From Aspidapion aeneum (Eukaryota > Arthropoda > Insecta > Coleoptera > Brentidae), in the NCBI GenBank assembly GCA_963576565.1, contig OY755038.1:200791013-200855012 (forward strand): DNA of 64,000 nt. Reading direction: 5' to 3'. Below the pieces are notes generated by a model. It searched no databases. It worked only from the letters and a program-made list of their open reading frames with translations, and had not been told where the DNA came from. Below are positions 27,414 through 51,138 of the stretch, in pieces (the stretch's first letter is position 1; each line of letters opens with the position of its first letter). The translations under genes and the position numbers were made by a program.

Positions 27414-27575
27414 CCTCCCTTCCCCGCGCGAGAGCAGTCGCCCATACACCGCTGAAAAACGGGTGAAATTGAAATCTTGCCCCACGCGGTGCTGCCTCCC
27501 TTCCCCGCGCGAGAGCAGTCGCCCATACACCGCTGAAAAACGGGTGAAATTGAAATCTTGCCCCACGCGGTGCTG
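27414..27575. repeat. Perfect 81-bp tandem duplication
   Basis: 27414-27494 and 27495-27575 are identical base for base (start cctcccttccccgcgcg, end ccccacgcggtgctg). The unit is GC-rich. Perfect identity suggests a recent duplication or an assembly artefact. Confidence 0.95.
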
Positions 27576-27689
27576 CCGGCTTGTAATTATTTACGCTAAA
27601 AAAGTTTTCCCAATTAATTGCCTTTTTTAACGGGAAGATTTAACTTTTTTTAAATAAATTAATTAAAAATACTGTTTTTTGTCTAGTTT

Positions 27690-28225: not shown

Positions 28226-28229
28226 CCAG
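28226..28229. repeat. Target-site duplication CCAG, left
   Basis: CCAG immediately before the 5' LTR is repeated as CCAG at 44682-44685 immediately after the 3' LTR. Confidence 0.85.
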
Positions 28230-29547
28230 TGTAACAAAACGGGATTTGAGCATAAATGGTATTTTTGCCATTTATAAGTTTTTAAAGATTTTTAATTAAA
28301 TATTGTTTTTGTCATCAACAAGCATTAATTATATGCAAGACTAGGTTAAGATTAAGTAAAATTTATGGCAACTCGGCGACTTGTTTTTAGGCATGTTTTC
28401 AGGTTCGCTGTATTTTAATAAAAGTTGTATTCGGCTAATATGTCCTTTGAGCCACTAACATCAACATAATTCATATTTTGTAACTGGAAACAAATTTGGT
28501 AAACTATTTTCAACTTTTAAGGAACACACTGTAAGATTTAAACTTTACCGAATTTCTAAATCCACGCATCTTTGAATTGCGGTGGTATTTTGTCTCTTTG
28601 TCTTTCTCGCCAATGCGAGAGAGCTTAAGATTCAAACCACGGCAACCAAGAGTGTCTGTAGAGAAGAGTGGTGGAAGAAATCCGTTAAAGAAAGCTTAGA
28701 TTTAGCCCAATCAGCTAGCGGCAAACTGAGAATGTCTAGAGAGCGGGGTATTGAAACTTTCGAAAGTCGTCAGGGATTTTACTCTTTAGTTTGTCGTTGC
28801 CTAGTACGGTACACTTTCATTTACACTTCTTAAGGGGGGTTTTATTTCAACTGGGGAAATTTATCAATTATTTTAACATTGTATAAAACTGTTAACTTTA
28901 ATATTCATAATTATTTTGGTCTTTCCTTTTAGAGTTTATTGATTGTAAAGTCATTAATTATTACTGTTTCCAGTGTTTTGAAATAATGTGTTTAACTGTT
29001 TTATGGTTTTTTATCAACAAAATACAAACCATTCGTTGCCCTAAAATCGGCATTTTTAATTAATAACATATCCCAAACCTAAACAGTAATATTAAGTAAA
29101 TTAAACAGTTGATTGAATAGTTTCACTCATTCAATCAACGTTTAAGATGTTGATAAATATATATATTTACAACAAATATATAAAAGGTTTATAAAACCTA
29201 AAAGTTTAAGAAGTGTAAATATTTGAATATAAAAGTTCAATGGTAGTAAAAATTTGATATTAAAATAATAAATATTAGAAGTGAAAGTGTGAAGCTGCAA
29301 GAAGAAAATTGAAAAGGTATGTATGATTATCCTATTAGTTATACATTTGAGAAAAACGTTTATAGCATACTTTTCCTCCAAGAACCGCCAAATTCCCTTT
29401 CGAGATCGTGTAAATTTAATAACATATAGTAACATTTAATCTTTTTATAATTTATATAAGTTGTAACCTAAGTTGGTAGCTTACAACATTTAAGCCTTGG
29501 CAACTTGAGGTGACAGTACCACTGTCACACGCCAGGCCCCTCTTACA
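28230..29547 (+). repeat. 5' LTR
   Basis: 1318 bp, TGTAACA...TCTTACA. It differs from the 3' LTR at 29262 (A against T) and 29542 (C against G, which spoils the terminal inverted repeat). Internal features: a GC-richer block at 28565-28830 holding an 83-codon GTG-initiated frame, a perfect 10-bp hairpin GTTGATTGAA/TTCAATCAAC (29108-29139), and TATA-like atatataaaagg near 29176. Promoter and polyadenylation points cannot be fixed by eye. Confidence 0.92.
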
Positions 29548-29550
29548 AAG

Positions 29551-29568
29551 TGGTGTCAGTAGTTCAGG
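29551..29568 (+). promoter_or_regulatory. Primer-binding site (tRNA-Leu-like)
   Basis: Three bases after the 5' LTR comes TGGTGTCAG, complementary to the 3' end of tRNAs finishing CTGACACCA, as many tRNA-Leu do. The match weakens after nine bases. Position and TGG start are as required for minus-strand priming. Confidence 0.7.
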
Positions 29569-32500
29569 GTAATTTAGTTTTTGGAAAATTCGTGAAAAAA
29601 TTTTTTGGAAAATTTGGGAAAAATTTTGAAAAATTTGTGAAAATTTTATGTTGAAAGTTTGAGAAAAACACTCAGTAGTACTTTAGTTAACCCATTGGTA
29701 GTATTTTGTTGGAAAAACTAAAGGAAATTTTTGTAAAATTGTTCATTTAAAAAGAAATAGTCTTGTCTAGTTTTTGAAAACCAAAACTAATTTGTTGGAA
29801 GATGTGCCATAACTGTTTTTCGTTGTTAAATTTACTAACGTTATAATCTGTGTTGCAATTTTTTTATGAATTTTTTAATATTTTTGAATATTTTTTGTCC
29901 TTGAATCAGTAAATACAAGGAAAATGTCAATGTCATGACAATGTTTCTATTGATATATGATCACTTTAAATTTTTAAAAGATAAATTGGTAGAATATTTT
30001 TTATTGAAAAGTTAAGTTTAAATACTATCCAGATATGCCAGCAAATAAAATGCTCTCCATTTCTATCTGGAGGACGGATTCTCCAGCATGCGAAAGGATC
30101 AACCTTTTGCCTTAATAAAGCTTTACTGAACTCTAGATTTGAGTTATAACTCCAAAACTCGTTGGTAAACTTTTAAAATTGTTCCATCAAAACATTATTT
30201 AAACAAAATGGATAAAAGAGTCCATTATTTTGTCTTAATTGTAGCACAGTGTTGTTAAAATAAAGTCTCATTAAACTTATCATTCTCTTGCCATTAAAGC
30301 CTATTTTGTCTTTCTAGCTGAATTTTTTAAGAATCTTTTATTAAAAACACAAAAAAAAGAGTCCATTGCAACTCTTTATTTTTGATTAGTTGGCTGAAAC
30401 AATAATTGCCAACCCTTCCTCTAACAAACCACTGATTTTTTTTGAAGACACCCGTCAAATATAACGAAGGGAGGATATTTTTTATTTATTTTATTGCATT
30501 AATAACAGTTTTTTTTGTTTTTTTTTTGAACCATTAAACCTTTTTTATTAATATTTAATAACATTTTTTGTATAAATAATACAAAAAAATTTATGTTAAG
30601 TCATTATAACATTGTTTTTATAAGTATTTTTCTTCGTAGATATCGATATTTCTACTTTATTTTGGTTTTATTCTTTGTTTAATAGCTAAAATTTCATTTG
30701 GCAAAAAGTACCTAAACCAAATTATTTGACCATCTAAGTATCCAAAATGGTGTAATTAATTAATCTCAAGTAATTTTCCATTGATATTGCATCATAACTT
30801 TAAAATTTATAATTTCTAACTACTTTTTCCATGCAAGCGTGGGTAGCATACCTCTGCTATAGTCTATTTGCAATAATTATGGAAATTTCATCTCTCATAA
30901 ATTTGTGCTACAGGACATTTGTAAAGTATCTGGTCAGGATAAACTCAAACAACAGACCTAGCTACTAGCAATATCTTGTATAGAATATGTGATAGATGTT
31001 TTTTTTTGTCACTTTGTAATTTTTGTACTCTCTATATCATACAAATATGATTGAGATTTACCAGTTCAAACTATAAGTAAGCAACCACGAAGTATTTTCA
31101 AATTTTATGTTTTTATATTTCCAGATTTTCAAAATGTATTTTATTTTCCAAATTACACACAAGTTTTTTTTTGGAAAATAAACGTGACTGACTGATTTCT
31201 TTGTATCTCAGTAACAACTTTGTCGATTATGAGAAATTTCTTTATTATAAGGTCTACAAGTAAATCTTTCAAAATTTTAAAAGCACTAATTTGCTAAAAC
31301 CATGGACTAAATAAATGTAGCCACAGCAAATATCGACTCTATACAATTATTATCAAATTAAAAATAAAAATTTACGTTTTATGTTACAAAACATAGCATT
31401 CAAACATAGCATTCTTTAAAACGACGTACTTGTCGAACTATCTTTGCTTTATAATTTCCTTATGACGTATTATTCTTTTCATAAAAGAAAATTTGATTTT
31501 CTTTTTAAGTTGGATATTATCAGCACTATCTGCAAATTCACAGCTTTTAAGTAAAGTGAGGTAAATGTAAAAACAACCTCCTGTATATTTTTTTTGGTTT
31601 TTTTGAGAGAGACTTTATTTTATTTATTTTCTTTCACTAACATGTAGGTAATCAAGTGAATTTCGTTTCATAATATTTTTAATCAAATCAAAAAGTATAT
31701 TGTCGTTTATTATCGTAAGTTATTGTCAAGCCATTTTTGCATAATGGTATACCTAATTAAATATTATGAAATGGAAAAACCTATGTAGAACCCTTCATTC
31801 AATTTTCTATGATTCAGGTAAAGCCAACTAGATGGTCCGAACAAAAACTTTCGGGTTTTTGTTTGTAAAGTCGTAAACTAATTTATCGTCTCTTCTTAAT
31901 TATTATGTAGATTTTGGGAAAAATCACAATAAAATTATTTTTGCTTTATTTTGTCATTATCTTTGCCCTTAAAGGAATTAATCCGCTACATGCGAAGTAA
32001 TTAGGTAATTAACTATTTATGTTAATAAATGAACTCATCACACTTAAATATCTTATTAAATATTAACACCTTTGAAATTAAAACCTAAAACGACTTATTA
32101 CCAAATAGATCATTCTGAGTTAAAACCATGATGTAGAAAGAGAAAAATGATTAGGGAGTTTGATAAAAAGCTCATATTATGAAAAAAAAAGTACTGATCT
32201 TTGTCAACATTAAAATTTGGTACATGTCTAACTTTGAAGACCTATTTTTTTCGAAAAAAATCTAAAGTTATATCCTAAGAAAGGATATTAAGAAAATTCG
32301 ACCTATTTTAAATCAAAGCAATAAAATAACCACCTTTAGCGAAAAATGTACGTTATTTTTCATATTTTCAAAAATCAAAACGTTAACCTAACAGAAAACT
32401 AAACCTTTTTTGTAGAAAAAATAAAAATGGCATCCATATCGGTTTACTAGTTACCATCTTAAAACACAACTTAGATTATTTAGAGACTGTTTCATCCTAT

Positions 32501-32864
32501 TTTTTATTCGTATGTCATTGTATTGAATAATAACTTTACTGAAAAAATAAATAAATTATCCATCAATTAACTTAAAAGTCAAAACACGTTAACTAAACTT
32601 AAGAAAGGACTATATTACCTATTGAGAACTGCCCATAAGCTTTTATCTCAGTACATATTTTAGATCGAGTCAAAATTTTTATTTATAAAGTCCTTGTAGG
32701 AATACTTTATTTTATCATCTGTATTTTACACTAAAATGTCACCTAGAGCAATGATTGACATTGCGCAAGTTGTAATTAAACATTATTTGTTATAAACTAC
32801 CACTAGTATTATTGTCACAGTGCATTCATTACGTTTTTTAAAAAGAGAATGGTGCTATCTATCT
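29569..32864. other. LARD interior, part 1: non-coding
   Basis: Very AT-rich, no frame over about 60 codons with any domain. The first 500 bp, where packaging and dimerisation signals would lie, contain runs of aaaattt words and a modestly less AT-rich patch at 30040-30120. Confidence 0.5.
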
Positions 32865-33045
32865 ATTTATTTAGCCTTCTTTGATCCATCTTTGGATATA
32901 GGCCTCCTTCAATATCTTCCACTCTTTCCTGTATGACGCCGTGTTCATCCATCTAGTCCACATGTTTCTTCAAATCGTGCGCTCATCTCATTTGTGGTCT
33001 TCCACTACCTCTTTTATTTTCCCAAGGTATCCAGTTTACAATACA
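32865..33045 (-). pseudogene. LINE 3'-terminal fragment inside the LARD
   Basis: On the minus strand the text encodes, in broken frames, K-R-GSGRPQMR followed by a W/H-D-L-KK segment and EAYIQ-RW-like endings. This is the standard C-terminal tail of insect LINE endonuclease-reverse transcriptases (GRP...RW, then a trailing EAY.Q.W). It ends in a (gata)n-like run at 32865-32875. Only the last ~60 codons remain, so it is a 5'-truncated insertion. It differs from the 36-kb fragment, so two LINE families are represented. Confidence 0.55.
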
Positions 33046-36000
33046 TTTGTTTGACAAAAGGACGATCGATTTAACAAATGTATTGGTGTTATCGACTATG
33101 TCTTAAATGAAATAATATTTTGTAAAGCCATACAGTAATTTTTGGAAAAAAACATAATCTCATAGCATTTTTATTGCATAAGGCTAAAGAAAGTCACAAA
33201 TCAATGTCCTAACACAGTAAAGGCTTTTCTTAACCCTTTTTACTTGTTTTAAAACGATAATTTGTTATAACAGTGAAATCGTTTTGATTAGTTTGAAGCT
33301 AGAAGATATTTTCTTGTAATTTCTATTAAAAAGACCAAGTTTACAGGTCATGTCCATGTCTTTATGACTATATAGGTACATTATTGATTTTTAATTAAAA
33401 GATATACAAAATTAAGTACCATGTTTCAAATAACTAAAAATATAAACAATTTAAATAAATAAATTCGATAAGATCAAAGTACCATGTTTGATGTAATATG
33501 TAGATTTACACCAAAACAGCAGATAACCTAAAAAGATTGCTTAACAGTTCCTTTTCCATACTATATAGGAGAAGTACTAATAATTGTTTCCAAAATTTAA
33601 CCAAAGATAGTGATAAATTAATCTATTATTCTAAATTTGACTTGACCTTTGAAATTGGATAAAGGTATTTGATATTTTTCCTAAAATAAAAACTCGCGTA
33701 TTTTGAGTTAGTAATAATTTTATACATAATCTTAAAAACAATATTATTTAGCATAAATAATAATTATTAAAATAAATATATCATAATTCCCATTTAATAA
33801 TTAAAGACTGGTTAAAGAGAAAACGCAATATGGAAATATGGAAATTTAGGTTATACATAACCAATAAGCTAACTTAATTATAAAATTAATTAAAATCAAA
33901 TAGGATTAGTAGAAAAAAAAAACGAGACATAAATTAGTTTGAACGACTTAGTCTATTGCTTCAAGCAAATAAACTATTTTGAAAAACTAAATCAACTTTT
34001 GAAAATTATTGCAAATACCGTTGCAAAAAGATACCCTGTATATTTGCTTGAATCAATTTAAGTATGGTAAAACTTTTTTTATTTAGGCTGCATTTTTTTA
34101 AATATCCAAGAAAGGTTTCGAAAGGAAAAACCCGTTATTTAATTTCATATTTTTTGATCTTTTATTTCCAAGTTAAAACGTCTTGGCCCATAAATCAATT
34201 TACAGGCTATAAAAGTCTTCCAGACCACTTGGGTCTATAAACAAAGATATACTTGAATTTTGGTAATTTTGAAACACATGTTCACCATATTTTATACCTA
34301 CATTCTAAAAAGGGCTCTTCTATTCATTCAGGTCCACAAAGAAATGGTTAAGAATTTTTAAAATAAACACACATCTGGGAAAAAACCTTTCGTAGCCTAC
34401 TTCGTTAGTCTGTATGCATAACAGTGGCGTATCGGAATTTTATTTGGGGAAGGAAATATTATAATAAATATTGCATAAAACTATTTTGCATATTGTCCAG
34501 ACCACTGTATTATGTGTGTCCAAAACAAATATATTTTAACATTTGGGAGGGAAATTTCACTTTTTTTTACCCTCCTGTAGATCCGCGTCTGACGCATCTA
34601 TTCACATTTAACTTTACGGTATCTATCAATTAAACTATGATATTATATTTATAGATCAAACAAGCTTTCGTGAAAAAAAAATGTTTTGTTTCTCTCATAT
34701 TTTTCCGTGAGCAGCTTGAACGCTCACGGGGGTCTAATGTTTGATTTTTCATTCACGGGTACTATTAAATTTATATTTTTCAAACAAGATCTATAGTGAG
34801 AAATGCAGTTCCTTGATTTAAAATTTCATTAAGGTCGGTCGGTAATTTTTGAGTTGCCAGCTAAATCTAGAAAACAATGGCTTATGTACATAATTCCTAA
34901 TATTCTCGTAACCACATCACATGTGACGATTTTAGTGCGTTAAATTAAAAAATATATAGGATTTATATTTACAAACTAAAAAAAATTGGTATTTTGATAT
35001 CTATATGATATAAACTTTTTCATAAAAACTTTTTACTTTTATGTACAACGTCGTGTAAAACACAGTGTTACACAATAGACCCGTGTGTACAGAGAGGTAC
35101 TGAAAACAGCTTACATAAATTTCCATCTATCATTTTTTTTTTAAACTATATTTCATTTTTATAAATTATACCATGAAGTAATTAAGACCTTTTGTTTCTA
35201 TTTTTGTCAACCTTAAAAGTGTCATTTGAGCTTTTAAACCTTCATTTTTGTTTAAGACAACTATTAAAACATAAACCTGTTGGTTAGTATTTTTTTTGTC
35301 CATATTAAGATTTAAAAGAAAATTGAGAATATTTCTCAAATTTTAAGTTATTGACAGTTAAGTCAAACTTTTGTTTATTGTCATAGCTTTCTGCACCCTT
35401 CATTATTTACATAGCATTCTGCACCGTTCATTATTTTAAAATTGACTAATGTAATTTTTCGATAAATTTACCTATAAGATGTTTCATGGTAGTAATCTTT
35501 ATCAACTGCTAATAAAAAAAAAGTAGCTCAAAAGAAAGGTCTATTTCCCAGGCCTACTTCGTACTTCGTACTGTATGTTTTTTTTTTGAAAAGCGCTAAT
35601 AACATAATGTTTTCTCACGTTTACTAGTTATTATATGCATAGAGTTCTATAATTTTTCAGTTAAGTTGTCTCTGCACAGTTAATCAAACTATTTCACAGT
35701 TTTGACTGCGAATTGAGTTAGTATACAGATAATTTGAATTTTCTTTCATACAGTATTCTTTTGTTTTCTTTGCGTTCCAAGAAAATGTTGAATAGATACA
35801 TACATCCAGGATATTCTTAGCATATGTAAATAGTACCGAATCTCAAAAGTTTTAAGTTATTTACACACAGAGATTCTATAATGTAGTTGTCGTAGCAATA
35901 TAATAACTTGCGTGCGTAAATATCTTAGTAACCAAAGATTTAGTACATTCGTTTCTTTGCTAACTTTTGTAATCTTCTTATCCTGTTTAATAAAAAAATA

Positions 36001-36089
36001 ATTTTTATGCAATTATCATCAGAGCTTACTTTTTTTTTAAATGTGTTATTACTATTTTGCTGTAGTTGGACTTACTCTATACAGTAGTT
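33046..36089. other. LARD interior, part 2: non-coding
   Basis: AT-rich. A 26-bp direct duplication (catag-ctttctgcacccttcattattt type) lies near 35384-35436. No domain-bearing frame. Confidence 0.5.
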
Positions 36090-36470
36090 GTTTACTACTA
36101 CTATGTCGGTTTAGAACGTTTTTCTACGTTGTCCGACGCCTATTCTCCACCTCCTTCGATCATGACAGTGATCTTCCTTCCGTCAGGTTTTTTTTTGACT
36201 CATTGATCTTTGGATTGACTGTTACCATTCCAGTTTAGGACGCCCTCTTTTTCTGCGCCCTATTGGTTGCCATTCTAGGACCTGTTTTGGTAATCTTTCG
36301 TCGTTCATCCGTTGTACATGGGCATACCATATCAGTTGCCTTTTAGTGATGTCATCAGTTATGCTTTCCTCGATTCCCATTATTTTTTTTATGATCTCAT
36401 TTCTTGTATGATCAGTTCTGGATATTTTCATTGATCTTCTTATTGCATCCATTTCGACACTTTCCATTGG
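36090..36470 (-). pseudogene. LINE C-terminal fragment (same family as 44.7 and 54.8 kb)
   Basis: The minus-strand frame from 36599 to 36222 contains, from about residue 46, ESVEMDAIRRS, ITDDITKRQLIWYAHVQRM, LPKQVLEWQPIGRRKRGRP and KLEW. This is the RT-distal tail of an endonuclease-reverse transcriptase LINE, continuing out of frame to the family's 3' end with its tagtagtag tail near 36090. The same text is at 45525-45860 and 56380-56745. The first 45 residues of the frame are not LINE. At the 5' truncation point a perfect 12-bp palindrome (acactttccatt / aatggaaagtgt, 36457-36487) suggests local inversion during integration. Confidence 0.85.
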
Positions 36471-36599
36471 AATGGAATGGAAAGTGTAGTTGTTTAAATA
36501 AACGATTAATTTTTCTGAATTAGAGGTAGTTGACATTTCATCCCCTACCCATTCTTTGCCAAAAAGTTTAATTTTTTTTTGTAATGGCTCAAGCCACAC

Positions 36600-39500
36600 A
36601 CGTATTGAAAAACCTATAAAAAAATATTAATCTAGATCCTAGATCAATCTGAAAGTCAAAAGGGACAATCTCCCTCTTGAGTTTTTAGATTAGATCGTCG
36701 ATGTCAAAAAGGACAATCTTTGTCTTGAGTTTTTAAGTTTTTTTTTGTTTCAATATTTGCAATTTTGACACTAAAGATATTTTTTCTCTTGCATTGCAAA
36801 AGCAAGCCTGTCTATCATTACATAGACATATATAACATAAATTAATTAAGCAATGCCTTAGCATTTTAATTTAAAATTTTGCATTTGTAGAGGTTTTTTT
36901 GTTTTATTCGCCTAAAAAGTTTTTAATTATCATCTAATCCTCGTAATTTATGAGCACTCATTAAAATTTTTTTTTATAAACTTGTTATAATTTTTAATAA
37001 CTACGAGACCGATTTTAATGAAAAGAAAAATAATAGTGTCTAAACACTTTGTCAAAAGCATAATACATTCATTAAATGATGTTTTAAAGAAAAAGTTTTA
37101 TTATATTTGTTAAAACCATGTATAAAATTAGTGCTATAACTTCGTTTTCTTTTATAGGTGAAGACCATGACATTCAACAACTGTAGAGGTCTACGATTCT
37201 TCGACTTCCCTCAAAAATTTTACTTACTTAATATTTTTATTTTCAGGAATTATATTGTTTTGTATTGGGTTGTAAATGACCAAAACATCAAGTTGAGAGT
37301 TTTTAAAAACTATTTGTTCTAAAATTGTTTGGTAATTTTTGAGATATTTTTATAAATGACAAAAGTCTGTTACTATCTGTTGAGTAAATATGTGAGAGGG
37401 AAGTATTTTTGAATTAAAGCGTCCTAGAATTTTCTTTTAACGTAACTTTGATATGGCTATATGGTATGGCAAAATGGATCTGTGTTTGTTATATGCATCT
37501 TTTGATGTATAAGGAATGTTATAAAACAATAGACCAATAATAATTCGCCAAGTGGAATCGTCGCGTTTTCTTTTTCTTTTGTTTTTTTTTTTTGTAAGAC
37601 GAGGGCGAATTAATTTTTTCGCTGTTTGTATCATTATATTATAGATTATTTTATAAAATGTTTTTTTTATGGAGTGAGTGTTTTTAGCTGGATTTTAAAC
37701 TCCCCAGTCATTGAGAAGAAGGCTGAGGAGTAAATTGGGAAAATTTTTCTTCTCCACTCGAGAGGGTGTTACAATGGTATACCTATAATTAAAATTTTCA
37801 ATTGGTCTATATTTGTTTTGTTTGTTGCCGTATCTCCTAATATCGTAACTCAATTTTGAAAGATAGGGTTACGGTATAGTCAGTTAGATGTTTTAACCAA
37901 TCTTTATCAAGAAAACTACTGAATTAATAATCGTCATGTTATAGCTTACATGGTCTACAGGTGAACTGGTCTAAAACAGCGGAAAAATATATGGGTTGGA
38001 TTTTTGGGTTTCTTTCAAGTCAAGTCATTTTGTAAAAATGGGAATTTAAATTTAGGAAAAACTATTCAAGGTAGAGGTAAAACTTTAACTATGAAACGAA
38101 TAAAAGTTATATCAGGGTAGGTTAATGAAGACAGTGACGTCACACCTAGTAGTTACCAGTAGGAGACCAAGGTAATTTTCTATTTCGTCATGTTGGGAAC
38201 TCATTTTTGAGTTATACTGGATAAACAATAGACCGGAAAATTTATTTAACAAGAAGATTTGGAGTAGTCTCTTTCTTCTGTACACACCTGTGATCTTCTA
38301 ATTTCAGGAATCTGGCCAGTAACCGGAAATGCTGAGCTCACAGTGTCTTATGTTTTCTAATTAGGGAGACAAAAGCGTTGTCGTTGAATAAATTTTATAT
38401 TTTACAATACAATTTTCAATTTAAAATGGTAGCTACCTATTTTTTTTATTATGACGAAACATGATTTAGATTTGGTATACAAGAGTCACTATATGTTTTT
38501 GGAACCTGTGTTGAAGTGATGATGGGATATTATTTTAAAACAGGTTTTATGGTAGACATTTGGACAATTTTTCTGACTTGGTTAAAAAATAGGTTAATTA
38601 GATAATATTTGAGATAGTAACTAAAAGTTAGGATTTTTAGAAATTTAGTGTTTAATGGTATAGGAATAGGAAAAACTTAGAAGATACAACCATAAAGAGT
38701 AGACGACTCTTGAGTCATGCCATATCAAAGAAAACCGTTTTATGTTTATCAGTGATATTTAAAAAAAAAAGATATTAACATCAAGAAATAATCAGAGATT
38801 GGAAAAACAGACAAGAACAGCAGAATAAAGAAGTATTTTCTTTTATTATAAAATTTTATGATTAAATTTTTACTCTTTTTACTTTATAGGGTTGATAAGC
38901 CATTTAAGCTAATCTTTATGTCATTTGGTAATATTTACATTATGAAATTTATATATTTTCTTTTGTCTTGACATTTTATAAATAAAACCACTGTCTTTGG
39001 CTTTAGCAGTGATAACACCTATAGACTAACGAAAAAGTCTCATTTGAATTAGAAAGTTTTAAATCAAAAACATCTTAATGGAATAGTATATTTAAAGTCA
39101 AGTAAATAAAATCTTTGTATAAAAAAAAAATTCTAGTGTACAGCGAACAACTGTTTTTTTTTATTCTGTAAAATGTTACCCGTAAAACTAATTATCATAA
39201 AACTAAGTGCATAAGCACAAATTTTATAAAATAATAACTAATTAGCTGTGGAGATTGGTAGTTGGCATAATCGCTGGACTTAGAGACAGTGTCTCTATCG
39301 CGTTATGGCCACAGTTATATCTATAAGTGTACAGAACTTTTGTAATTTTTAATTATGCGTAATAAGTGACAACTATACCGTTATTCTTTAATCTCTTTTG
39401 TACTTTGCTTTAGTAGAAGTAAATTGTATCTTTTCAGATAATGTCTGCATCAATCATATGTCAGATATGTAATTTTAATCTTGTTTTTTGTGTTACACGG

Positions 39501-42500
39501 AAAAAGTGTAATATTTAACTTTTTATTATTTTGGTAAAGTAATTTTTTTTTCTAGTGACCAGAACATTTTAGATATTTTGTAAACTTTTAATAATTTTTT
39601 TAAATTTTTTGTAATATTTAAAAAAAAAACAAAATATCATTTTATTTTTTGTTAAAATCCACACATGCCTTTTGGTTTTGTTCTTTTATGATGAATATGT
39701 GTGTTATAGTAAATCAACGTAACGTAATGGTTAAAGTATTAACGTAAAATCGATTATATATAGTATATTTTAGAGTCCATTATTTCAAAAAGCTTTGTTT
39801 TTTTTTAAATGGGGGTCATTTGCTCTTAATCAGTGCTTTTCTAAGATCCCATAAACCGAATAAAAACTACGTCATCAACGGTTAAAATTTTTTTCGATTT
39901 ATGTACATATATTTTTTTTTTTTTTTCATTTTGAAGTCATTCTTGAATCCAATTGGATATTATCATAGCAATCTTAACATTGCTAAGATACATTTTTCTA
40001 TTTTTTTTTTCTCTTCTCATTATATTATAACTTGATAAAATCAATATTATCTAAATTAATGACATTTGATTCTTTAAAACTATTTTTGAATTTTTGTATT
40101 GTTTATCGATAAAACAATATTTTATTTTTTATGTTTTTCTCCTATATGGAAAATACTCGACTATACGAACTTTAAGTACAGTCTGTACCATTTAAGCCAA
40201 GTAAATTCCATTTTGAGGATAAATTTTGATAATCTTTTTTTTTATTTTGATATTTTTTTAAAATCTACACTATTTTAAACAAACAAAAAACATTCTCCAC
40301 TCTTTTACTCTATGAGTACAATTGTTTTTGTAGAACTTTTCTACGACTGTATAACTATGTCAAATCACAAAAATGTGTTGTCTTTTCTAAAAATGTTTTT
40401 TTTGTTAGTTTGTTCCTTTCTGTTTGCTGTCCTAGTTAATCGATAATATAAAAATATTCTCTATAACGTCATAGCATTAATCAAGAACACCTAAATTATT
40501 ATTTTTGTACTATTTTTATTTCTATTATCATCTTTAAGTAATTTTGTTGTTACTAAGGCCTATACATGATTGGCTCCATTAATGATAAACAAAAAGTATT
40601 TATGTATACTTTTTGTGTAAATAATAAAATCCTTTAAATCACCAGTTGATCGTTTATGGAAAAACTTATCGTAAAAGTTAGTCTTTCTAAGATCAGTGTT
40701 TTTATATTTATATATTTTTATTTTTCGTATATTAGCAAGCATTATTTCATTTATTATTATTTTTATTATTTTTTTTTTAAATATTTACTCATTTTAAGTC
40801 TTGCGTTATCTAAAGAACCTTATCGTTTAAGATACCTTTTGTTTTTTTTGTCAACTTATTAAATTGGAAAAAAAGTATGTTATACCTAAAATATTTTAAA
40901 GTATTTTTTTTGTATTATTTTTTTCATATTTTCGAAGTAAGCCCTTGCCTGCTTGGACTCTAAATAGTTCTTATTTAGTAGTTTTGGAAAAATAAGAAAT
41001 GAGTTTGTCACCCAAGAGAGTTTTTTCTTTTCATAACACCAAAAAGAGTCGATTGAAGCAACCATCAACTGTCATTTTTGTTTAATTTTTTTTTGTCATT
41101 CGCTTCAATTGGAATATAATAAGACATAATTTTATTTAAAATTTTATTATCAACTAAGATTATTTTATTTTGTTTGTTTTGATTCATGCACTTTAAAATC
41201 GTCTATCGCCACCTGTGTATGTGTGTATGAAATTCGATAAAACCTAAATTGGTCAAATTTTAAAACATTTGCTTACATTAAGTCAAGTATTTTGAAGCAA
41301 AGATGTCTAATTTTCAAACAATGACATCAATAATAACCTACTTTGTTTTGCTGCTGTTCTTAGTTTTTCAAAATTGTGTAAAACCAGCTTACAATTAATT
41401 GGAAAATAAAATAAAATGCAAATTAGTTAGAAAATGGAAACCCAACTTTTCATTTTCAAACATACTAAAATCACACCGAAAATCAATTTGAAAGGAAGAA
41501 TATTTTTCATGTTTAAAGAAAAATTATTTAGCAAGATCTATGGAAAAGAAAGTTTACATTAAAAAAGATAATGTTTCAGGAAAGAAATTTTAAAGAAAAT
41601 TCGGAAAAAAATGTGAAAAATTCTAGGAGGAGCTTTATTCTAAGTGATTTTGAAAATGTATATATTCATCTGGCTGGATTTGTTCTATTTTGATTTGTTC
41701 ATGAGTTTTTTTTTATTGATTTGTTCTATATTGAATTATATTTTGATTTGTTCTAGTAAAAAAAAATATTATATTTGAATTTATTCTGTTTAAAAAATCT
41801 ATGTGGATTTGTTTCATTTGAGATTATTCTATCTGTTCTATTTGATTTTCTTTATAAAATTAAAATTTTTGTATCATTAAAATCTTAACTATGATAAAAA
41901 CTTGTATTTCAGTTTTTGTATCATTTTGCGTTCGTTTTTGCTAACTTGTATTTATTTTCAGTTGTTCTTTCGATCACATGAGTTGTTTTTATATGATTTG
42001 TTTTTGCTTCGATAGAGTATTCCATGTTTGATTTAAGGTTTATTGTGTTAACCTGGTAGGGTTGTTTTTTTTTATTACACTGTAAACAATAAACCAACTT
42101 AATTTTTTTTTCAAATATTGTCAACTAAACGTTTTTTTTCTCGTTATTGTAAATTAATTTTGATATTTGAATTTTTTTTTAAATTATTGTCAATTAAACG
42201 TATTTTTTTTAATTTTTTTTGGTATAAATATATTTTAAAGTCTTAAAATAATCAATTTTAATATTTCAGTTAGTGTTTGTAATTTCTTGCTTTTATCTTT
42301 GTTTTAAAATTAATTTTTTTTATGCAAACACGTTTTTTTGGGTTAGACAACCTTTTGTAGGTTATTTGCCGTCTAACTAGTTTTAGTTCACCTAAAACTT
42401 ATTTATGAGATGTAATCATAAAATCAAAAATTTTCAATTTTTTTTTATTTAAATAATATATAATTTTTTTTTAACAATTAATTTTGTTTTACATAAGGTT

Positions 42501-42556
42501 GGTTTATTGTTATTAAAAACATTGTTTTTCTTGTATTAAAATTATTTTGTTTTTAG
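36600..42556. other. LARD interior, part 3: non-coding
   Basis: Extremely AT-rich with many T runs. Local duplications include tcaaaagggacaatct...cttgagttttta (36653-36690 and 36700-36737) and repeated gatttgttcta words at 41650-41850. Frames up to 67 codons are compositional. Confidence 0.5.
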
Positions 42557-42810
42557 GTCAGCTATTGCAAAGTGCTGTCAACCAACCAACAAATTTCTTC
42601 CACAAACAGTTTAATCAACCAAGCAGCCATTCCACCATTAAAGTCATTAGATCTGCCAAGCAGCCATCATCACTACAATCGACGTCTTCTTACCGTCGCT
42701 GTGCAAACCTGCAATTGGATACTTCTTTCCAAATTCAATACAGAGTCTGCTGTTCACCCTTAGTTTCAAAGATGGCCAATGTGGAAACTCAGCTCTTGCT
42801 GCGTACCTAG
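42557..42810 (+). CDS. Possible spliced exon near the LARD 3' end
   Basis: A T-rich tract ends in ttttgtttttag at 42556, a good splice acceptor, and composition changes abruptly to a less AT-rich block. The first frame is open for about 84 codons, Gln/Ser/Asn-rich, ending RT then TAG; a second overlapping frame (42572-42763) is also open. No envelope-like features (signal peptide, membrane segment, furin site) are seen. It may be the acceptor exon of a subgenomic RNA or simply a non-coding leader-like region needed for transposition. Function unknown. Confidence 0.25.
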
Positions 42811-43350
42811 TGTTTGTTTAACACTATGGAGGAAACGGTTTGGTTTGGAGACTCCCTTAATTTATTTACGTTAACTTAAATCACTTTTTTTTTGTCTCCA
42901 CAAATTTCTGCATAAGCGTGTATATAATATATACCTTAATGTAGTAGTTTTCGAACAATGTGTGTTAAAATTATTTATTTCTATATATTTTTCGGTTTAT
43001 TTGTCAATTTTATTTTGCCCTCATTTAATTTAAGTTATCGTTGTTATTAAGCTGCACTGATATTTTGATTCTTTCAGTACTGTTTGGAATCTACTGATCG
43101 TTCACCATGTTTGTTGCTGACTAGCTGATCTAAGATGTTGTACCTGATCCAGTGTTGCTGTTTTGTTCCAGAATGGAACTTCAAGTTTTTTCCAGCCAGA
43201 ATGTTTGTTAACCATCATCCACAGAAGAAAAATGGAAACGAAGAGCGCTATAGTTTTAGTTTAGATTTGTGTTGTCTGCACTACTTAATGCTTGTTGTTA
43301 TAAACCATTTTATTTCGACTTGCGTTTAAAAAAAATTGTTTATACTTAAT
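42811..43350. other. LARD 3' region, non-coding
   Basis: Less AT-rich at 43080-43280 than the rest of the interior. Contains a 64-codon frame (43135-43329) with no family resemblance. Leads into the purine tract. Confidence 0.4.
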
Positions 43351-43363
43351 CAGGGGGGAGTAA
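43351..43363 (+). promoter_or_regulatory. Polypurine tract
   Basis: aggggggagtaa directly abuts the 3' LTR start TGTAACA at 43364. A purine run at this place primes plus-strand synthesis in LTR retrotransposons and fixes the element's orientation as plus. Confidence 0.85.
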
Positions 43364-44681
43364 TGTAACAAAACGGGATTTGAGCATAAATGGTATTTTT
43401 GCCATTTATAAGTTTTTAAAGATTTTTAATTAAATATTGTTTTTGTCATCAACAAGCATTAATTATATGCAAGACTAGGTTAAGATTAAGTAAAATTTAT
43501 GGCAACTCGGCGACTTGTTTTTAGGCATGTTTTCAGGTTCGCTGTATTTTAATAAAAGTTGTATTCGGCTAATATGTCCTTTGAGCCACTAACATCAACA
43601 TAATTCATATTTTGTAACTGGAAACAAATTTGGTAAACTATTTTCAACTTTTAAGGAACACACTGTAAGATTTAAACTTTACCGAATTTCTAAATCCACG
43701 CATCTTTGAATTGCGGTGGTATTTTGTCTCTTTGTCTTTCTCGCCAATGCGAGAGAGCTTAAGATTCAAACCACGGCAACCAAGAGTGTCTGTAGAGAAG
43801 AGTGGTGGAAGAAATCCGTTAAAGAAAGCTTAGATTTAGCCCAATCAGCTAGCGGCAAACTGAGAATGTCTAGAGAGCGGGGTATTGAAACTTTCGAAAG
43901 TCGTCAGGGATTTTACTCTTTAGTTTGTCGTTGCCTAGTACGGTACACTTTCATTTACACTTCTTAAGGGGGGTTTTATTTCAACTGGGGAAATTTATCA
44001 ATTATTTTAACATTGTATAAAACTGTTAACTTTAATATTCATAATTATTTTGGTCTTTCCTTTTAGAGTTTATTGATTGTAAAGTCATTAATTATTACTG
44101 TTTCCAGTGTTTTGAAATAATGTGTTTAACTGTTTTATGGTTTTTTATCAACAAAATACAAACCATTCGTTGCCCTAAAATCGGCATTTTTAATTAATAA
44201 CATATCCCAAACCTAAACAGTAATATTAAGTAAATTAAACAGTTGATTGAATAGTTTCACTCATTCAATCAACGTTTAAGATGTTGATAAATATATATAT
44301 TTACAACAAATATATAAAAGGTTTATAAAACCTAAAAGTTTAAGAAGTGTAAATATTTGAATATAAAAGTTCAATGGTAGTAAAAATTTGATATTTAAAT
44401 AATAAATATTAGAAGTGAAAGTGTGAAGCTGCAAGAAGAAAATTGAAAAGGTATGTATGATTATCCTATTAGTTATACATTTGAGAAAAACGTTTATAGC
44501 ATACTTTTCCTCCAAGAACCGCCAAATTCCCTTTCGAGATCGTGTAAATTTAATAACATATAGTAACATTTAATCTTTTTATAATTTATATAAGTTGTAA
44601 CCTAAGTTGGTAGCTTACAACATTTAAGCCTTGGCAACTTGAGGTGACAGTACCACTGTCACACGCCAGGCCCCTGTTACA
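43364..44681 (+). repeat. 3' LTR
   Basis: 1318 bp, TGTAACA...TGTTACA with a perfect 7-bp terminal inverted repeat. Same length as the 5' LTR, with no indel. The two mismatches are at 44396 and 44676. The hairpin GTTGATTGAA/TTCAATCAAC is at 44242-44273. Confidence 0.92.
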
Positions 44682-44685
44682 CCAG
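44682..44685. repeat. Target-site duplication CCAG, right
   Basis: Matches 28226-28229. The sequence then continues into a LINE remnant. Confidence 0.85.
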
Positions 44686-44699
44686 GTACCAGTGACCAC

Positions 44700-45870
44700 T
44701 CAGGACTTTACGAATCGGAGACGTAGCAAGATAATATTAAGACGCTTAAATCTGGAAAATTTGAGGGAATATACGCTAAAATGCATAAAGGGACAACGGA
44801 TGATTGGAAAATAGTATTCATATCCTCAATACATAAAAAAGGAAACTAGCTGGATTGTAGCAATTACAAAGGAATTTCAGTAACTCTAAATAGATTGTAC
44901 AATAGGATTTTAAGAGATGAATAGAGAATGATTTTCATGAACAAGAAGAAGAAGAGCAAAGTGGGTTTCGTGCAGGCAGATCTTGTAGTGATAATGTTTT
45001 TTATCTTACACAAGTAATTGAGAAAAGGAGTGCCAGAAATATAGAGACTCATGTTACCTTTGTGGACCTACAAAAAGCATATGATACCGTGTAGAAAAAT
45101 CATGGACAGTGTTAGAAAAAACTAAATAGAAAGGGTCAGAATCTATAATTAAAATTGGGAATCAACTTTCAAAAGAATTCCTGGTAACGAAAGACAGGGA
45201 AATTGTGTGTGTTTGCTGACGACGAAATAATTGTAGCTAATAATAAAGATAACAAAAGTGGGGGTTAACAGTTAACGAATCAAGTGAGTTAGAACTAGAC
45301 AATAGACAAACAATATATCCATGCACTGAATATCTATACTTGGGTGTCACATTTGATAAGACAGGAACAGACTGTCAAGAACTGGAAAAAGGGATAGTCA
45401 AAGCAAAAAAATTATTGGATCTCTTAACAGTATTTTATAGAGCAAAGAGTTAAAAAAGAAAGAAGCACCCTGTTGTATGGTATAAAGACTTGTCGCGTAA
45501 CAAAAAAAAACAAAGCAAAAACGGAAAGTGTCGAAATGGATGCAATAAGAATCTTTAGAACAGATCAAATAAGAAATGAAATCATAAAAGAAAGAATGGC
45601 AATCGAGGTAAGCATAACGGATGATATCACTAAAACACAACTGATATGGTACGGCAATGTACAACAAATGAACGACGAAAGATTACCAAAGCAGGTCCTA
45701 GAAAAGCGCAGAAAAAGAGGGCGTCCTAAACTGGAATGGCAACAGTCAATCCAAAGACTATTGAGTGAGTCAAGAAACCTGACAGAAGATGATTGTCAGG
45801 ATCGAAGAAGGTGGAGAACAGGCGTCGGACAACGTAGAAAAACGTTCTAGTAGTAGTAGTAGGCGCAGCA
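44700..45870 (+). pseudogene. Decayed LINE reverse-transcriptase copy
   Basis: Aligned by eye with 55330-56745. It starts at the K-LKSGK segment before the RT domain, runs through DW-K-IVFISSI-KKGN, EQSGFRAGRSCSDN, THVTFVDLQKAYDT and a shortened FADDE-IIVANN active-site region, to YLGVTFDKTGTD, ESVEMDAIR, ITDDITKTQLIWYGNVQ and KRGRPKLEWQQSIQR. Many frameshifts, stops and internal deletions (for example between 45115 and 45215) make it non-functional. It ends in tagtagtagtag at 45848. It begins only some 20 bp from the LARD, so the LARD inserted beside it. It keeps a stretch (about 45283-45350) deleted in the 56-kb copy. Confidence 0.85.
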
Positions 45871-47990
45871 ACTTCCTTTCACCCTCCTTTCGCAAACTCA
45901 CTGCACCGGATTCATTGAAACTTCGATCGTACCTATACTTTCTCTTTAGCCTTAGACCTATTATTTACGTTTAATATGGAGACTTTTCAGAGTTCAAAAA
46001 TTCGAAATAATGAATACAAATACCTAATATAAACAATACCCCGGCGTACGATATCGGTAAGGTACGCATGTTGAATATCTGTGTCAATTGTCAACTCTGA
46101 TCCGCGAAAGAGCGCGACGTTCTTATAACCACCACCGAAACCTTGCGCATCTGAACCTGATGACGACACAAGGAAGCTGCTTCACAACGGGTTCGCGAGT
46201 AGTTTATTTTATTTTCAAAAAATATGGCTAACATTCTAACCAAATCTGGTTTTAAAAAAAAAAACTGTTAAAAATTTTTTAAAAATCACGTCGATTTAGC
46301 AAAATTATGGAATGTTCAGAGAATATGAGTCGTTTTTTGTAAGGTACTTTAATTTACTTTTTTATAATTTTTAGATCGGGCCATGATATCTTTAAACGCA
46401 AATATCTCGAACACCCATCGACCGATTAAGGAAAATATAAAATTTTCTAAACTAAATCAAAATGCCTTTAAAACAACATATCACTCGACTCCCTTTTACT
46501 ATTCAAATTCTAGTGGTAATATTCACCCCTCGACGGCTCTCTACAAAAATTTCAATCTTGCCGTAAAAGCATTCCCCTCACAAAATATATTGTCAGGAAT
46601 GCAAAATACCCCTGACTGTGCCACTGTAAGAAACCATCTTGGAAAAAGGAAAAATGCAAAATATGGTTCTGTTGAGATAAGAAAGTGGTTTCGCCGCCCT
46701 CTACATTGGGAAACAGTTGGCTGCCGCCTACCTAGACAGCAGGTGGTTGATGCGTGAAAAACTACTGAATAGTGAAGAGTGGGAGTTGTATTGGTTAAGC
46801 ATGGGGATACATCAAAAAGAGAGAGGGTTTTCCCTTCAAAGTGATTGGCTATAGAAAAACTGTGAGATTAGAAAGTGTTGTCTATAAAGTGTCATTTTAT
46901 CTCTGTTTTCGTTTAGGTTTACTTGCTTAGCTCATTAGCTAGAATGTAAAGTTAATTGTAGGATTATCAGCTACGCCCGTGACTTGGTTCCTCCAAGCTC
47001 TTCAAAGAAGAGATAATGGATTACTTAGGTCCAACCTACCGTTAATAAAAACCCAAACTTTGAGGAGACAAGTGGGTAGTCACATTCTAAGTTTTGTTGA
47101 GCTTAAACTAAAAACCTCCAAATTAATTGTCAGTAAAGAAACATAAGATTTTTCTATTTGAAGAATATTTTGCAGTTTATTATTTTGGTAAGTTAAAGTT
47201 TTTATTTTAATATTTTGGGTCATTTTTATTTTATAGGTCATAACAACCCAAGTAACATTTCTTTATTTATAGCAGAAGCTAAAAGCAAAACAAGCGCGCC
47301 AGCTCAAGAATGCTTTTTAATAGTTTTTTGATTACAAAATAACAAATATTTAAAATGAAAAAAAAGTCATTTACACTATTCACCATTAAAAAAGTCTGTT
47401 TGGTTTACATAAATCAAAATTAAAGTAAAATTATTGTTAAAAAACACTGCTAAAACGACTAGATAAATATTTTCTCTTTACAATATTTTTTAAATAAATT
47501 TATATACGCCAATATGGTTTTATAGTGGTCACTTGGTTTTATTTTGTTACTGTATCGCAAAAAGGATTTTTGAGTGCCCTTATGAAATCAACAAAAAAAA
47601 AACAATATAAACATAGTCAACATAACCTCACTTAAATTTTTTGTATTTGTTTTTGAAGTGTTTAAAAGCGTATAATTCAACACTTTTAAATGTTTTTTAT
47701 CGTGCAATTTCGACACAATCGAGAGGGCCAGTGCAATGATATTCGTTGTACCTGCAGGTTGGAGGGTAACCTCTTATATAGGCCGTCTAAACAGGCCTTA
47801 TCTAGGCCTGGGTGTCCTACCCAGGAGGACGAAACTCAACAATTATTAATTATTGTCAATAATTATTAATTATTGGGCTTTAAATAATCCATCTTGCAAT
47901 AGGTAGGTACCAATCTGTGCCTAGGTATATCTATAGTTTTTACAAGAAATACCTAAAAAAATAAAACAGGAAAGTATTTACTTACTTCTG
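45871..47990. other. No gene recognised
   Basis: A less AT-rich segment at 46040-46200 and a 124-codon ATG frame (46383-46757) show no known domain. The latter lies in text (aaatatctcgaacacccatcgaccg) typical of dispersed insect repeats. A palindromic caattattaattattg duplication occurs at 47840-47874. Confidence 0.4.
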
Positions 47991-47996
47991 TTAGAA

Positions 47997-48540
47997 CCCT
48001 TAAGGAAACAAGGTTTTATTTGGCCGCCTATTTAAATAATATTTAATAAACAGCTATGGGTAACTATAAATACAAAATAATTAAGTTTACCTTTAACCCT
48101 TCCTATAAAACCTTTTTAAAATGCCTAAACGTAATGGCAAAAACCAAAAGTCTAAAGTTTATATTTACCACTCTTAAAAACCTTAAGGAAACTAGGTTCT
48201 ATATGGCCGCCTATCTAATCATATTTACTTTTAAACTACTGGTAACTATAAAAACAAAAGGATATACGATAACCTTTTAGCTCTATTATAAAACACTTTT
48301 GTGATGACCTAAAGTAATGAAAAAAACTAAATGACCAAAGTTTATATTTATTTCTTTTTAAAAACTTTAGGTAAAATGGTTTTATAAGATCATCTTTATT
48401 AATCAGAGATCAATAAAACCAAAAGTATCTAAAAGGAACAGAAGGAATATCCGTTTTATTATACTCCCTTTATAAATCACTTTTTGGTTGTATACCTCCC
48501 TTTTAGGTAACTGGCAATATAAATTACCTTTATGTAGCCA
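47997..48540 (+). repeat. Tandem repeat, ~183-bp unit, about 3 copies
   Basis: The phrase ccttaaggaaac-aggtt-tat-tggccgcctat recurs at about 48000, 48182 and (weaker) 48364. Each unit then has actggtaactataaa, cctttna-ctc-tataaaac and ctaaa-gtaatg. A frame through two units is an artefact of the repeat. Confidence 0.8.
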
Positions 48541-50537
48541 AATTGATCCTAAAACCCATAACAGCACCCTCTAAATAACCTAGGAACCAAATTAATAAAA
48601 CCTTGAGTGGTAATAATGTTACTTGGGAAAAGTCTTGTAACAGTTTGTAAAATGCAACCGAGTTTTATTTTGTATTCATTAAAGTTTGTAACGTTTTTAA
48701 AACTGTTTTATATTTATTTTATACACACAAGGGCTCTACTGCGGTACCCCCATTTAAGGGGGATTTAAAATAAAATCGTACCCGACAATATCGTCGTGCG
48801 CCGGGATTTTCTAAATTTTTAACAGTTTTTGAGAAATTCTAAATCTCAATAATAGAGTTCGGTTCAGAGGATTTTAAGATATCAACGCAATGGTTAAAGT
48901 TTAAAAATGTTTATTCCAGATACTATAAAATAAGACCTTTATAATGCTGAAGATGTTTACTTTTTTGCCATTCATTATATTAACGGTGAATTCTTGAAAC
49001 TCGTCAATATATTTTATAATGCATTTAAAAAGAAAATGGATAACAGAGTGCAATTTAGCTGCTTCCATTCTAGCTGCTTAGAAAGTAGAGCGAGAAACTC
49101 AATTTTCAAGAAGCTGCTAAATCAGCGTTTCGTTCCTGGCCTTCAGATGGATATACGACGAACCCATTATTATTGTTAACTGAAATTTAGCTGTTAGTTT
49201 GTCCACTGAACACCAATTTCATCCCAGAATATGGATTAACCCCACGGATTTCTTAAAAAGAAAATGGATTGCTAGCCCTGTGGCCAAGAAATTACTGCTG
49301 AGGAGGAGGAGGTCGACCATGACGGGACAATTTCTGTTGTCAACACTGAAATTCTTTAAGAGGGTTGTAGCTGGGTAACATTGATTAATAAAAATTTAAA
49401 AAAAACTTATTTGGGTATTTTAACTGAACCGATCCGAACCAACAAATTTGAAAAAAAAACATTCCCTGACTTATTTTCATAATTTAAAAAACATATGACT
49501 ATCTTTTTCTAAAATGACATTGTCAAATATGATTAAAAAACACTTTGGTTTTAAATTTTTTTACACGCTTGATACGTCGCCATTTTCACGTTATTAGAGA
49601 AACACAAAAATAATTACCAATCCTCTCTAATATAACTTTTATAAGTGCTGGCCAAAAGTCCCACCACCCTGCAAGCAAACAGCCTGACAAATGACAGCGA
49701 ACATTTTCTTTGAGTTCGGTGGTGTGTGTTAATAATGACATTCTTATAAATATCAAAAACTTGATATGGGGCCTTTTATAAATACGTACAGTGGTTATAT
49801 AATTCAGCACCTGAAGGGATCCTATTCTTGCAGTTATATTACACCTTATTTATAAAACTATTTAGCAAGTTAGTAAAACTTTTGTTCCCCCACCTCTATA
49901 TAACTTACGGTAACTGTCAGGGATTTTATAAAGCCAGGAAAGCATATTATAAAATCTAAACAACCTTATAAGAAATAGGAACCAAATTTATAAAACCTTA
50001 AGAAATTGAACATGTTATGTGATCTATACTTTTATCAAAGGTCTCATCATAAACATACCACAGGACGTCCGGTGAATGTACATTTTACGTCCATAATACG
50101 CATATCATGGTAAGTATCTAGTTTAAAAGCAGCTAACATATGTTTGAAATAACCGTTGTTGCAACCCAATTATTAGGAATTGATTGTAGTTTAGTGTTGG
50201 ACTTCCAGCGAAATTCAAAATTAACAAAGGCAATTTGAGTTCGTTTTCGAAGGTGATTTGGCTGTTTTGAAACTGAAAACTGATTGAACGCGTACATTTG
50301 GGGAAGAAATGGAAATTATAACGTAATAAATTAGTTTTGCGTTTTAAAATTATACATCTTAGTACTGTTTCGCCTATCTTTTATTAATCTTCATTATCGA
50401 AGAAATATATAAGTTATTTTTTCGATGTTTACATATAGTATAGGCACACGGTGCGCCCTTTTCGCAAACCCCGATTTGGCCGTACACCATATACCAAACT
50501 GATGCACATACCCCGTAGGATGCAAGTTTTCTTTCAC
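48541..50537. other. No gene recognised; one long-range direct repeat
   Basis: ataggaaccaaat-tataaaacctt-ag occurs at 48585-48612 and 49974-50000, suggesting that 47.9-50.0 kb is one repeat unit's span. A less AT-rich patch at 49040-49370 has a 61-codon frame without family resemblance. Confidence 0.4.
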
Positions 50538-50877
50538 TAAGGGCCGGTTTATCAATGGAGGGGTATCTCGTCGTGTTAGCTAGCCCTGGGTCAACTTTAA
50601 CCTTGGGGTAACCCTCGAGTTAAAGAGAAAAATGCTTATCCACGCGATTTTAACCCAGAGCTCCGAAACTCGCAGGTTGGCAAGGCTGGTAACAATCGAC
50701 CATCTAAGTTTTCCCTTCTTATTTATTAGTCTGTGCTATTTTTGACATTTTGTGGTTACAATCATATGTTTTTCTGTATTGTTGGTTTTGGAGTTTTGTT
50801 TAAAAGGATTTGGAAAAAACTTATTCACCTTCTTCAGTTATTGTACTCCAGCCAGTAAGTATCTACTATTGGGGCTA

Positions 50878-51138
50878 CTATTCTGTTAGGCCGAGTGGCA
50901 TTACTTTATTTCCACCGGCAGTTGATAAAGCAAATTGTTGTTTTAAAGGCTCTATGTCTCTACATAGAGATTTCTCTATAATGCATTTTCCAGAGCCGGT
51001 ATCGAGGACTATGTCTACCCCCTTAAAATTATTGACGACACCCTTAACTACCAGAATTTTATTGCTTGCCCCTGTTTGGAGGACGACGCCGTTGGGGCAC
51101 TCTAATTGAGTCGTCCTTGCACATTTGGGGATGGCGAC
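50878..51138 (-). CDS. Retropepsin (partial), -1 frame after gag
   Basis: On the minus strand, a frame opening just upstream of the gag stop continues as LECPNGVVLQTG..., then DIVLDTGSGKCIIEKSL. DTG is the catalytic aspartate motif of retroviral-type aspartic proteases, preceded by hydrophobic residues as usual. It runs in the -1 frame relative to gag and ends at tandem TAG TAG (50875-50880), about 45 residues after DTG. A full retropepsin would continue to an ILG-type motif, so the gene is cut short. Nothing of reverse transcriptase or integrase follows; the TIR region begins within 200 bp. It is a dead fragment of a Ty3/gypsy-like pol gene. Confidence 0.75.
   Translation of the reverse strand, partial: VAIPKCARTTQLECPNGVVLQTGASNKILVVKGVVNNFKGVDIVLDTGSGKCIIEKSLCRDIEPLKQQFALSTAGGNKVMPLGLTE

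Follow-up and report, generated by a model that had tools for sequence, protein, structure and literature searches.

A young 16-kb LTR element without recognised genes, and its family of mosaic copies, in an apparent animal genome

LARDs, of which Sukkula is a grass member, were reportedly described from grasses by Kalendar et al. in 2004, and BARE-1, an autonomous plant element, reportedly evolved as a mosaic (Vicient et al. 2005). The window, that is the whole 64,000-nucleotide stretch of DNA analysed here, holds an element that invites comparison with both. With grass LARDs it shares LTRs, a primer-binding site (PBS), a polypurine tract (PPT), a non-coding interior common to many copies and a presumed need for a helper; with BARE-1 it shares the mosaic state of LTR retrotransposon copies, although BARE-1 is autonomous and from a plant. 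Grass LARDs are described with ~4.4-kb LTRs and a ~3.5-kb interior (PMC3532108), dimensions that this element does not match, having 1.3-kb LTRs, a 13.8-kb interior, an apparent animal host and copies near linkage equilibrium. Because its dimensions differ from those of the type elements, we call it LARD-like, a reservation about size and not about mechanism.

The sequence-only reading of this DNA had presented LARDs as best known from grasses; they were indeed described there, but they are not a plant speciality, since two sources report them in insects: a repeat pipeline annotated LARDs in the honey bee (PMC4028053), and in Drosophila they count as one of the oldest TE groups (PMC9005704). 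Those insect annotations likewise concern non-coding LTR derivatives, whereas here the copies are young, full-length and flanked by target site duplications (TSDs). At the other extreme of size, TRIMs are under 1 kb, and PbTRIM of the harvester ant is described as a gene-less LTR retrotransposon in an insect (PMC3532108); ours is also gene-less and apparently in an insect, but at 16.45 kb it lies far outside the TRIM length of under about 1 kb. A review notes that what lies between the two LTRs of an element is seldom longer than 10 kb (PMC6431247). As for recombination, the wheat pair RLG_Cereba/RLG_Quinta has a non-autonomous partner whose recombination is ascribed to template switching (PMC11302176), but RLG_Quinta retains GAG coding and has a known helper, whereas no gene or helper was found here; a further paper is on non-autonomous pararetroviruses with concerted evolution of noncoding sequences (PMC5491270). 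A limited literature search on insect and animal LARDs returned no title about a giant recombining family, and one on linkage disequilibrium (LD) and template switching in LTR retrotransposons returned only work on a Drosophila inversion. The size, the near linkage equilibrium and the conserved core appear to be new, while the annotation of LARDs in insects was already known.

In our judgement the element is quite probably a young copy of a gene-less 16-kb LTR family whose mosaics formed before insertion, likely by template switching during reverse transcription by a Gypsy-type helper. The family offers a way to test the persistence of LTR elements that are very large and gene-less, and it shows that a 16-kb non-coding unit can still insert intact many times. 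If copies recombine as freely as described below, selection could act on short stretches independently, and therefore the diversity along the element would map the cis-acting sequences that the helper needs.

Structure and abundance of the element

The element is complete, with paired TG...CA-type LTRs, a PBS, a PPT and, at each locus compared, a fixed-length TSD of its own (Table 1). The LTR pair of the window copy carries two mismatches, at LTR positions 1033 and 1313. We take the PBS to be tRNA-Leu-like and the LTR ends, the PPT and the 4-bp TSDs to be Gypsy-like, the Gypsy assignment resting on these features in an element without pol.

Table 1. Coordinates of the element and its parts within the window
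Feature	Position	Strand	Basis or remark
Target site duplication CCAG, left	28226..28229	.	flank comparison
5' LTR, 1318 bp, TGTAACA...TCTTACA	28230..29547	+	two mismatches to the 3' LTR
U3 cassette, two strongly diverged alleles among copies	28520..28760	+	
TATA-like motif TATATAAAAGG in 5' LTR	near 29177	+	
PBS TGGTGTCAGTAGTTCAGGG, three bases past left LTR	29551..29569	+	
Interior without coding, 13,816 bp, colinear across 11 compared full copies	29548..43363	+	
LINE 3'-end fragment inside interior	36093..36468	-	
Conserved non-coding core	37300..38400	+	vs second family; family-2 piece ends at right edge
PPT AGGGGGGAGTAA, directly 5' of right LTR	43352..43363	+	
3' LTR, 1318 bp, TGTAACA...TGTTACA	43364..44681	+	
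Target site duplication CCAG, right	44682..44685	.	flank comparison
Complete element, 16.45 kb	28230..44681		

The assembly searched comprises 149 contigs and 1.286 Gb. The LTR search gave 2915 candidates; scoring 40 of them yielded 42 matches, among which, on our reading of the list, 15 LTR pairs were spaced 14.7-15.2 kb apart, the window's own included. The 10 higher-scoring of the 14 other pairs were fetched, so the resulting 11 full copies were selected by LTR similarity to the window copy. All 11 (10 fetched and the window's own) are flanked by perfect 4-bp TSDs that differ between loci; the PPT is identical in each of them and the PBS in 10, the remaining copy (c8) having one change. Copy lengths are about 16.0-16.5 kb, and each interior follows that of the window copy colinearly apart from indels. 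LTR pairs differ at 0-3 positions per copy, 16 differences summed over the 11 pairs (0.11%), which places insertion of the order of 0.2 million generations ago at an assumed mutation rate of 3e-9 per site per generation. Allowing up to one mismatch, we counted genome-wide 260 LTR-end/PBS junctions and 273 markers of the mid-interior, and none of either in a backwards-read control; these are counts of ends and markers, not of complete elements. An interior shared and conserved across many copies, as in LARDs, is thus seen both in the full copies and in the marker counts.

These observations bear out much of the sequence-only reading. It had proposed a complete young unit with equal 1318-bp LTRs, a CCAG duplication, a PBS and a PPT, all of which are present; it had suggested a high-copy non-coding family, which is real, young and 16.0-16.5 kb long; and it had pointed to a search of the assembly with LTR and interior for full copies with TSDs, which every copy fetched turned out to have. 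It had also named segmental duplication or misassembly of the two LTRs as what would undo it, and this can be set aside because 10 further copies each carry their own 4-bp duplication.

Diversity among the 11 full copies was ~1% in the LTR vs ~3-4% over most of the interior. Selection on the whole LTR was considered and dropped, because these copies had been picked for their similar LTRs: in a set of 12 picked by junction pattern instead, the LTR differed from the window copy by 1.2-2.6% and the leader by a similar 2.0-3.0%, the LTR mismatch reaching 7.6-8.7% in two of the 12 that carry the other U3 allele. In these two (L039 and L046) a ~250-bp U3 cassette is strongly diverged from the window's within otherwise near-identical LTRs, a difference that is promoter-region swapping. 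At another locus (G000, C1:187457892-187460516), three LTR matches adjoin in alternating orientation (-,+,-), possibly a palindromic integration or an inversion product.

Mosaic copies and a core shared with a second family

The main result, beyond the reach of the sequence-only reading, is a nearly free recombination among copies ahead of insertion. The copies are mosaics, and over about 0.3-1.2 kb the LD between their sites declines until it equals or approaches that of unlinked sites. The nearest relative of each copy switches between 500-bp blocks, and block distance matrices have a mean rank correlation of 0.21 for neighbours and at most 0.05 beyond. At 35430-35730, four copies differ by 0% (rounded) and the other seven lie 11-16% from those four, and beside these deep haplotypes all copies fall within 5% of one another at 34830-35129. 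In the two halves of the element, mean r2 fell from 0.56 and 0.44 below 50 bp to 0.11 and 0.15 at 0.6-1.2 kb, against an unlinked null of 0.10; beyond 1.2 kb the 5' half stayed at 0.10-0.12 and the 3' half at ~0.13, just over the null, and the minimum numbers of recombinations were 91 and 73.

The decay recurred in replicate samples that were not picked by LTR similarity, each including the window copy. For LTR and leader without the two other-U3 copies (11 sequences), r2 started at 0.31 and by 301-600 bp was at 0.10, equal to its null (0.10); when the two were added (13 sequences), it went from 0.66 to 0.15 at 601-1200 bp and 0.07 beyond (null 0.08); and in the mid-interior (9 sequences), from 0.79 to 0.14 at 301-600 bp (null 0.13). 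The effect of distance on r2 was reached by none of 500 position shuffles in each of five runs. Misalignment in hypervariable stretches inflates some of the four-gamete counts, but it cannot create a distance decay in the well-aligned LTR.

A PPT search that excluded the family's own LTR start led to a second family. The locus found (L069) has an interior 3' end 70% identical to the element's and an LTR alike only over about the first 60 bp. Its LTR gave 299 candidates; scoring 40 of them yielded 44 matches, among which, by our reading of the list, six LTR pairs were spaced 13.6-14.6 kb apart and two wider, at 19.7 and 27.1 kb. Four 500-bp samples from the interior of one copy were colinear with the element, at identities of 63-71%, 67%, 83% and 61%, with a longest stop-free stretch of 89 aa; the family-2 sequence compared amounts to 3 kb of this copy and the L069 end, so a gene elsewhere is possible. 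These alignments suggest that two giant families, the second ~15 kb long with different LTRs, likely share one old gene-less interior, and the design is likely old because colinearity persists at 61-71% in sampled interior pieces.

Against this background one region stands out. Over 37300-38400, as far as the family-2 piece extends, identity between the families is 80-92% per 100 bp, and within the family none of the 44 interior bins is less diverse than the two at 37351 and 37651, with 0.53% and 1.52% against a median of 3.60%. The predicted RNA fold of 37371-38150 scored z -3.5, with 0 of 20 shuffles as good, while two further stretches of the interior, 780 bases each, scored z -0.9 and -0.2; a fold of the alignment, made with 6 of its 12 sequences, gave z -3.3 (0 of 25 shuffles as good). 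Comparing consensus pairs between the window copy and family 2, 199 of 219 could be compared: 159 were unchanged, 16 were preserved through a change on one side and 5 through changes on both, and 19 were broken. Covariation support is weak, and the folding results speak for constraint on the core rather than for one specific structure. Rfam returned two matches for the core, at E 0.24 and 1.6, both below gathering scores, and none at gathering scores for the whole window. From its conservation between families, its low diversity and its folding we regard the core as a likely cis-acting RNA, which may serve in packaging or dimerisation.

Recent exchange between the families, instead of function, is a credible though rather doubtful source of this conservation. 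Recombination within the family is plain, and the core overlaps a polymorphic stretch, 38151-38450, with 6.9% mismatch and two haplotypes ~10% apart (8.5% mismatch at 38230-38419 in a separate comparison), so that exchange may explain some of the conservation. It accounts poorly, however, for the two bins that rank first and second of 44 for low within-family diversity, or for a core that folds better than its shuffles.

Timing of the mixing

Reverse transcription makes the two LTRs of an element alike at insertion, and locked pairs are therefore expected if copies insert already mosaic. When the same site was compared between 5' and 3' LTRs, ~15 kb apart, mean r2 was 0.985, with r2 = 1 at 26 of 27 informative sites, against 0.13-0.09 for sites 0.3-1.3 kb apart inside one LTR; this locking carries a mild bias, pairs having been noticed only where both LTRs scored well. 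Because LTR pairs stay locked while LD decays within ~1 kb, mixing precedes integration, and its pattern is likely the one that template switching between co-packaged RNAs would give. Post-insertion conversion or random assembly chimeras would uncouple the LTR pairs.

An unlikely alternative is that the mosaics arose by gene conversion between chromosomal copies, the source copies being converted first and transposing afterwards. Many similar copies offer a substrate, and copies that elsewhere differ by 2-4% share tracts of 0.6-1.1 kb without a single difference, a plausible length for conversion, but the tight pairing of LTRs within each element weighs against it, as does, with little power, a LINE family of the same genome (5459 first-look candidates vs 2915 for the LTR). 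In 11 LINE copies, on average 1.7% apart and with 6 informative sites, four gametes occurred in 0 of 15 site pairs, and r2 did not fall with distance. That collapsed or chimeric repeats created the mosaics is highly improbable: assemblers do struggle with 16-kb repeats that are 2-4% diverged, but different perfect TSDs stand at 11 of 11 loci, LTR pairs agree mutually and not with other copies, and random read mis-assignment is an unlikely source because LTRs 15 kb apart would not stay in step.

Under template switching before insertion, the reading we prefer, the whole unit would be transcribed from its LTR, two family RNAs would be co-packaged in particles of the Gypsy-type helper, strand transfer across the 14-kb interior would be frequent during reverse transcription, and the mosaic DNA would be integrated by the integrase of the helper. 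The core from ~37.3 kb may act in cis, perhaps as a packaging or dimerisation signal, and selection would keep it while much of the interior drifts. A wider reading, which we hold tentatively and at somewhat less than an even chance, is of a long-lived gene-less lineage that behaves like a sexual population: at least two giant families would live on borrowed enzymes, reshuffle their 14-kb RNAs by template switching until the copies are close to linkage equilibrium, and cohere through a conserved, structured core of ~1 kb in the RNA that marks them for helper particles. The signal defining such an RNA parasite would lie in its RNA and not in a gene.

Coding capacity and the search for a helper

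The LARD reading is supported by the interior, which is without coding capacity within the sensitivity of the Pfam scan. Its longest stop-free stretch, 134 aa, overlaps the LINE fragment, and in 30 Markov controls the longest such stretch measures 104 aa on average (range 70-142); stretches of at least 40 aa number 97 vs a control mean of 83 (sd 10). The LINE fragment is 91% identical to another LINE of the window, and its region is retained in all 11 copies (307-457 bases within 36000-36440). The sequence-only reading had found no gag, pol or env and had left decayed remnants to a profile search: with Pfam, run on six frames with X at stops, no match below E 0.18 arose in any of 18 interior pieces, which upholds the claim. 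Elsewhere in the window the same procedure recovered RVT_1 (2.6e-32) and gag (4.9e-7); on 44686-49000, which holds a decayed LINE-like stretch, it flagged nothing, and strongly decayed genes may therefore escape it.

That the elements are decayed autonomous Gypsy copies, and not a non-autonomous family, is for these reasons very hard to credit. LTR ends, PPT and 4-bp TSDs look Gypsy-like, and a Pfam scan can miss very decayed remnants; yet all 18 frame pieces were blank while the positive controls worked, polymorphic sites over the 11 copies show no clear triplet periodicity, the 1318 short indels tallied against the window copy, where a shared indel enters once for every copy that has it, include 1050 with lengths not divisible by three, and the second family is colinear at 61-71% in pieces, with its four sampled 500-bp pieces open over at most 89 aa.

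An autonomous relative sharing LTR ends, PBS and PPT, to which the sequence-only reading had looked for mobilisation, was not found in a partial search, and mobilisation in trans is for that reason something we infer. At the loci inspected, junction, related-PBS and PPT patterns led to gene-less sequence or a rearranged end and to no helper gag-pol with matching PBS, LTR ends and PPT. By our reading of the lists, contig C1 has 37 exact junctions, 28 of them with a mid marker 5.0-8.1 kb downstream; six of the nine without were fetched (3 kb each) and all six start with family interior, which runs throughout the 3 kb in three and for only 0.4-1.2 kb before other sequence in three. The related PBS TTACANAGTGGTGTCAGNAGTV had 0 exact matches. 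The same PPT followed by another LTR start gave five matches, namely the family copy c8, two apparent diverged copies of the same family, L069 of the second family, and a PPT with an inverted LTR; in the six frames scanned beside the last two, Pfam matched nothing with an E value up to 1.

At C1:194848000-194850700 (L068), a PPT like the element's is followed by the family LTR (92%) in inverted orientation, with different sequence upstream. The window itself contains an intact 525-aa gag ORF of Ty3 type (PF03732) at 51102-52679 (-), with four relatives at 38-39% identity, one of them named and from the beetle Agrilus planipennis, the sole sign of an insect host in this analysis; minus-strand frames scanned over 46000-54100 held no pol domain. 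This ORF was considered as the helper and set aside, no sequence link to the element being seen. LINE copies lie at 55449-56747 (with RVT_1) and 44780-45849. Towards the left of the window, an inverted repeat (1-838 / 1193-1991, 88.6% identical, 354-bp spacer) occupies its end, a tandem array of ~142-bp units, 82% alike, spans 17932-18957, and a perfect two-copy 81-bp tandem sits at 27414-27577, just left of the element.
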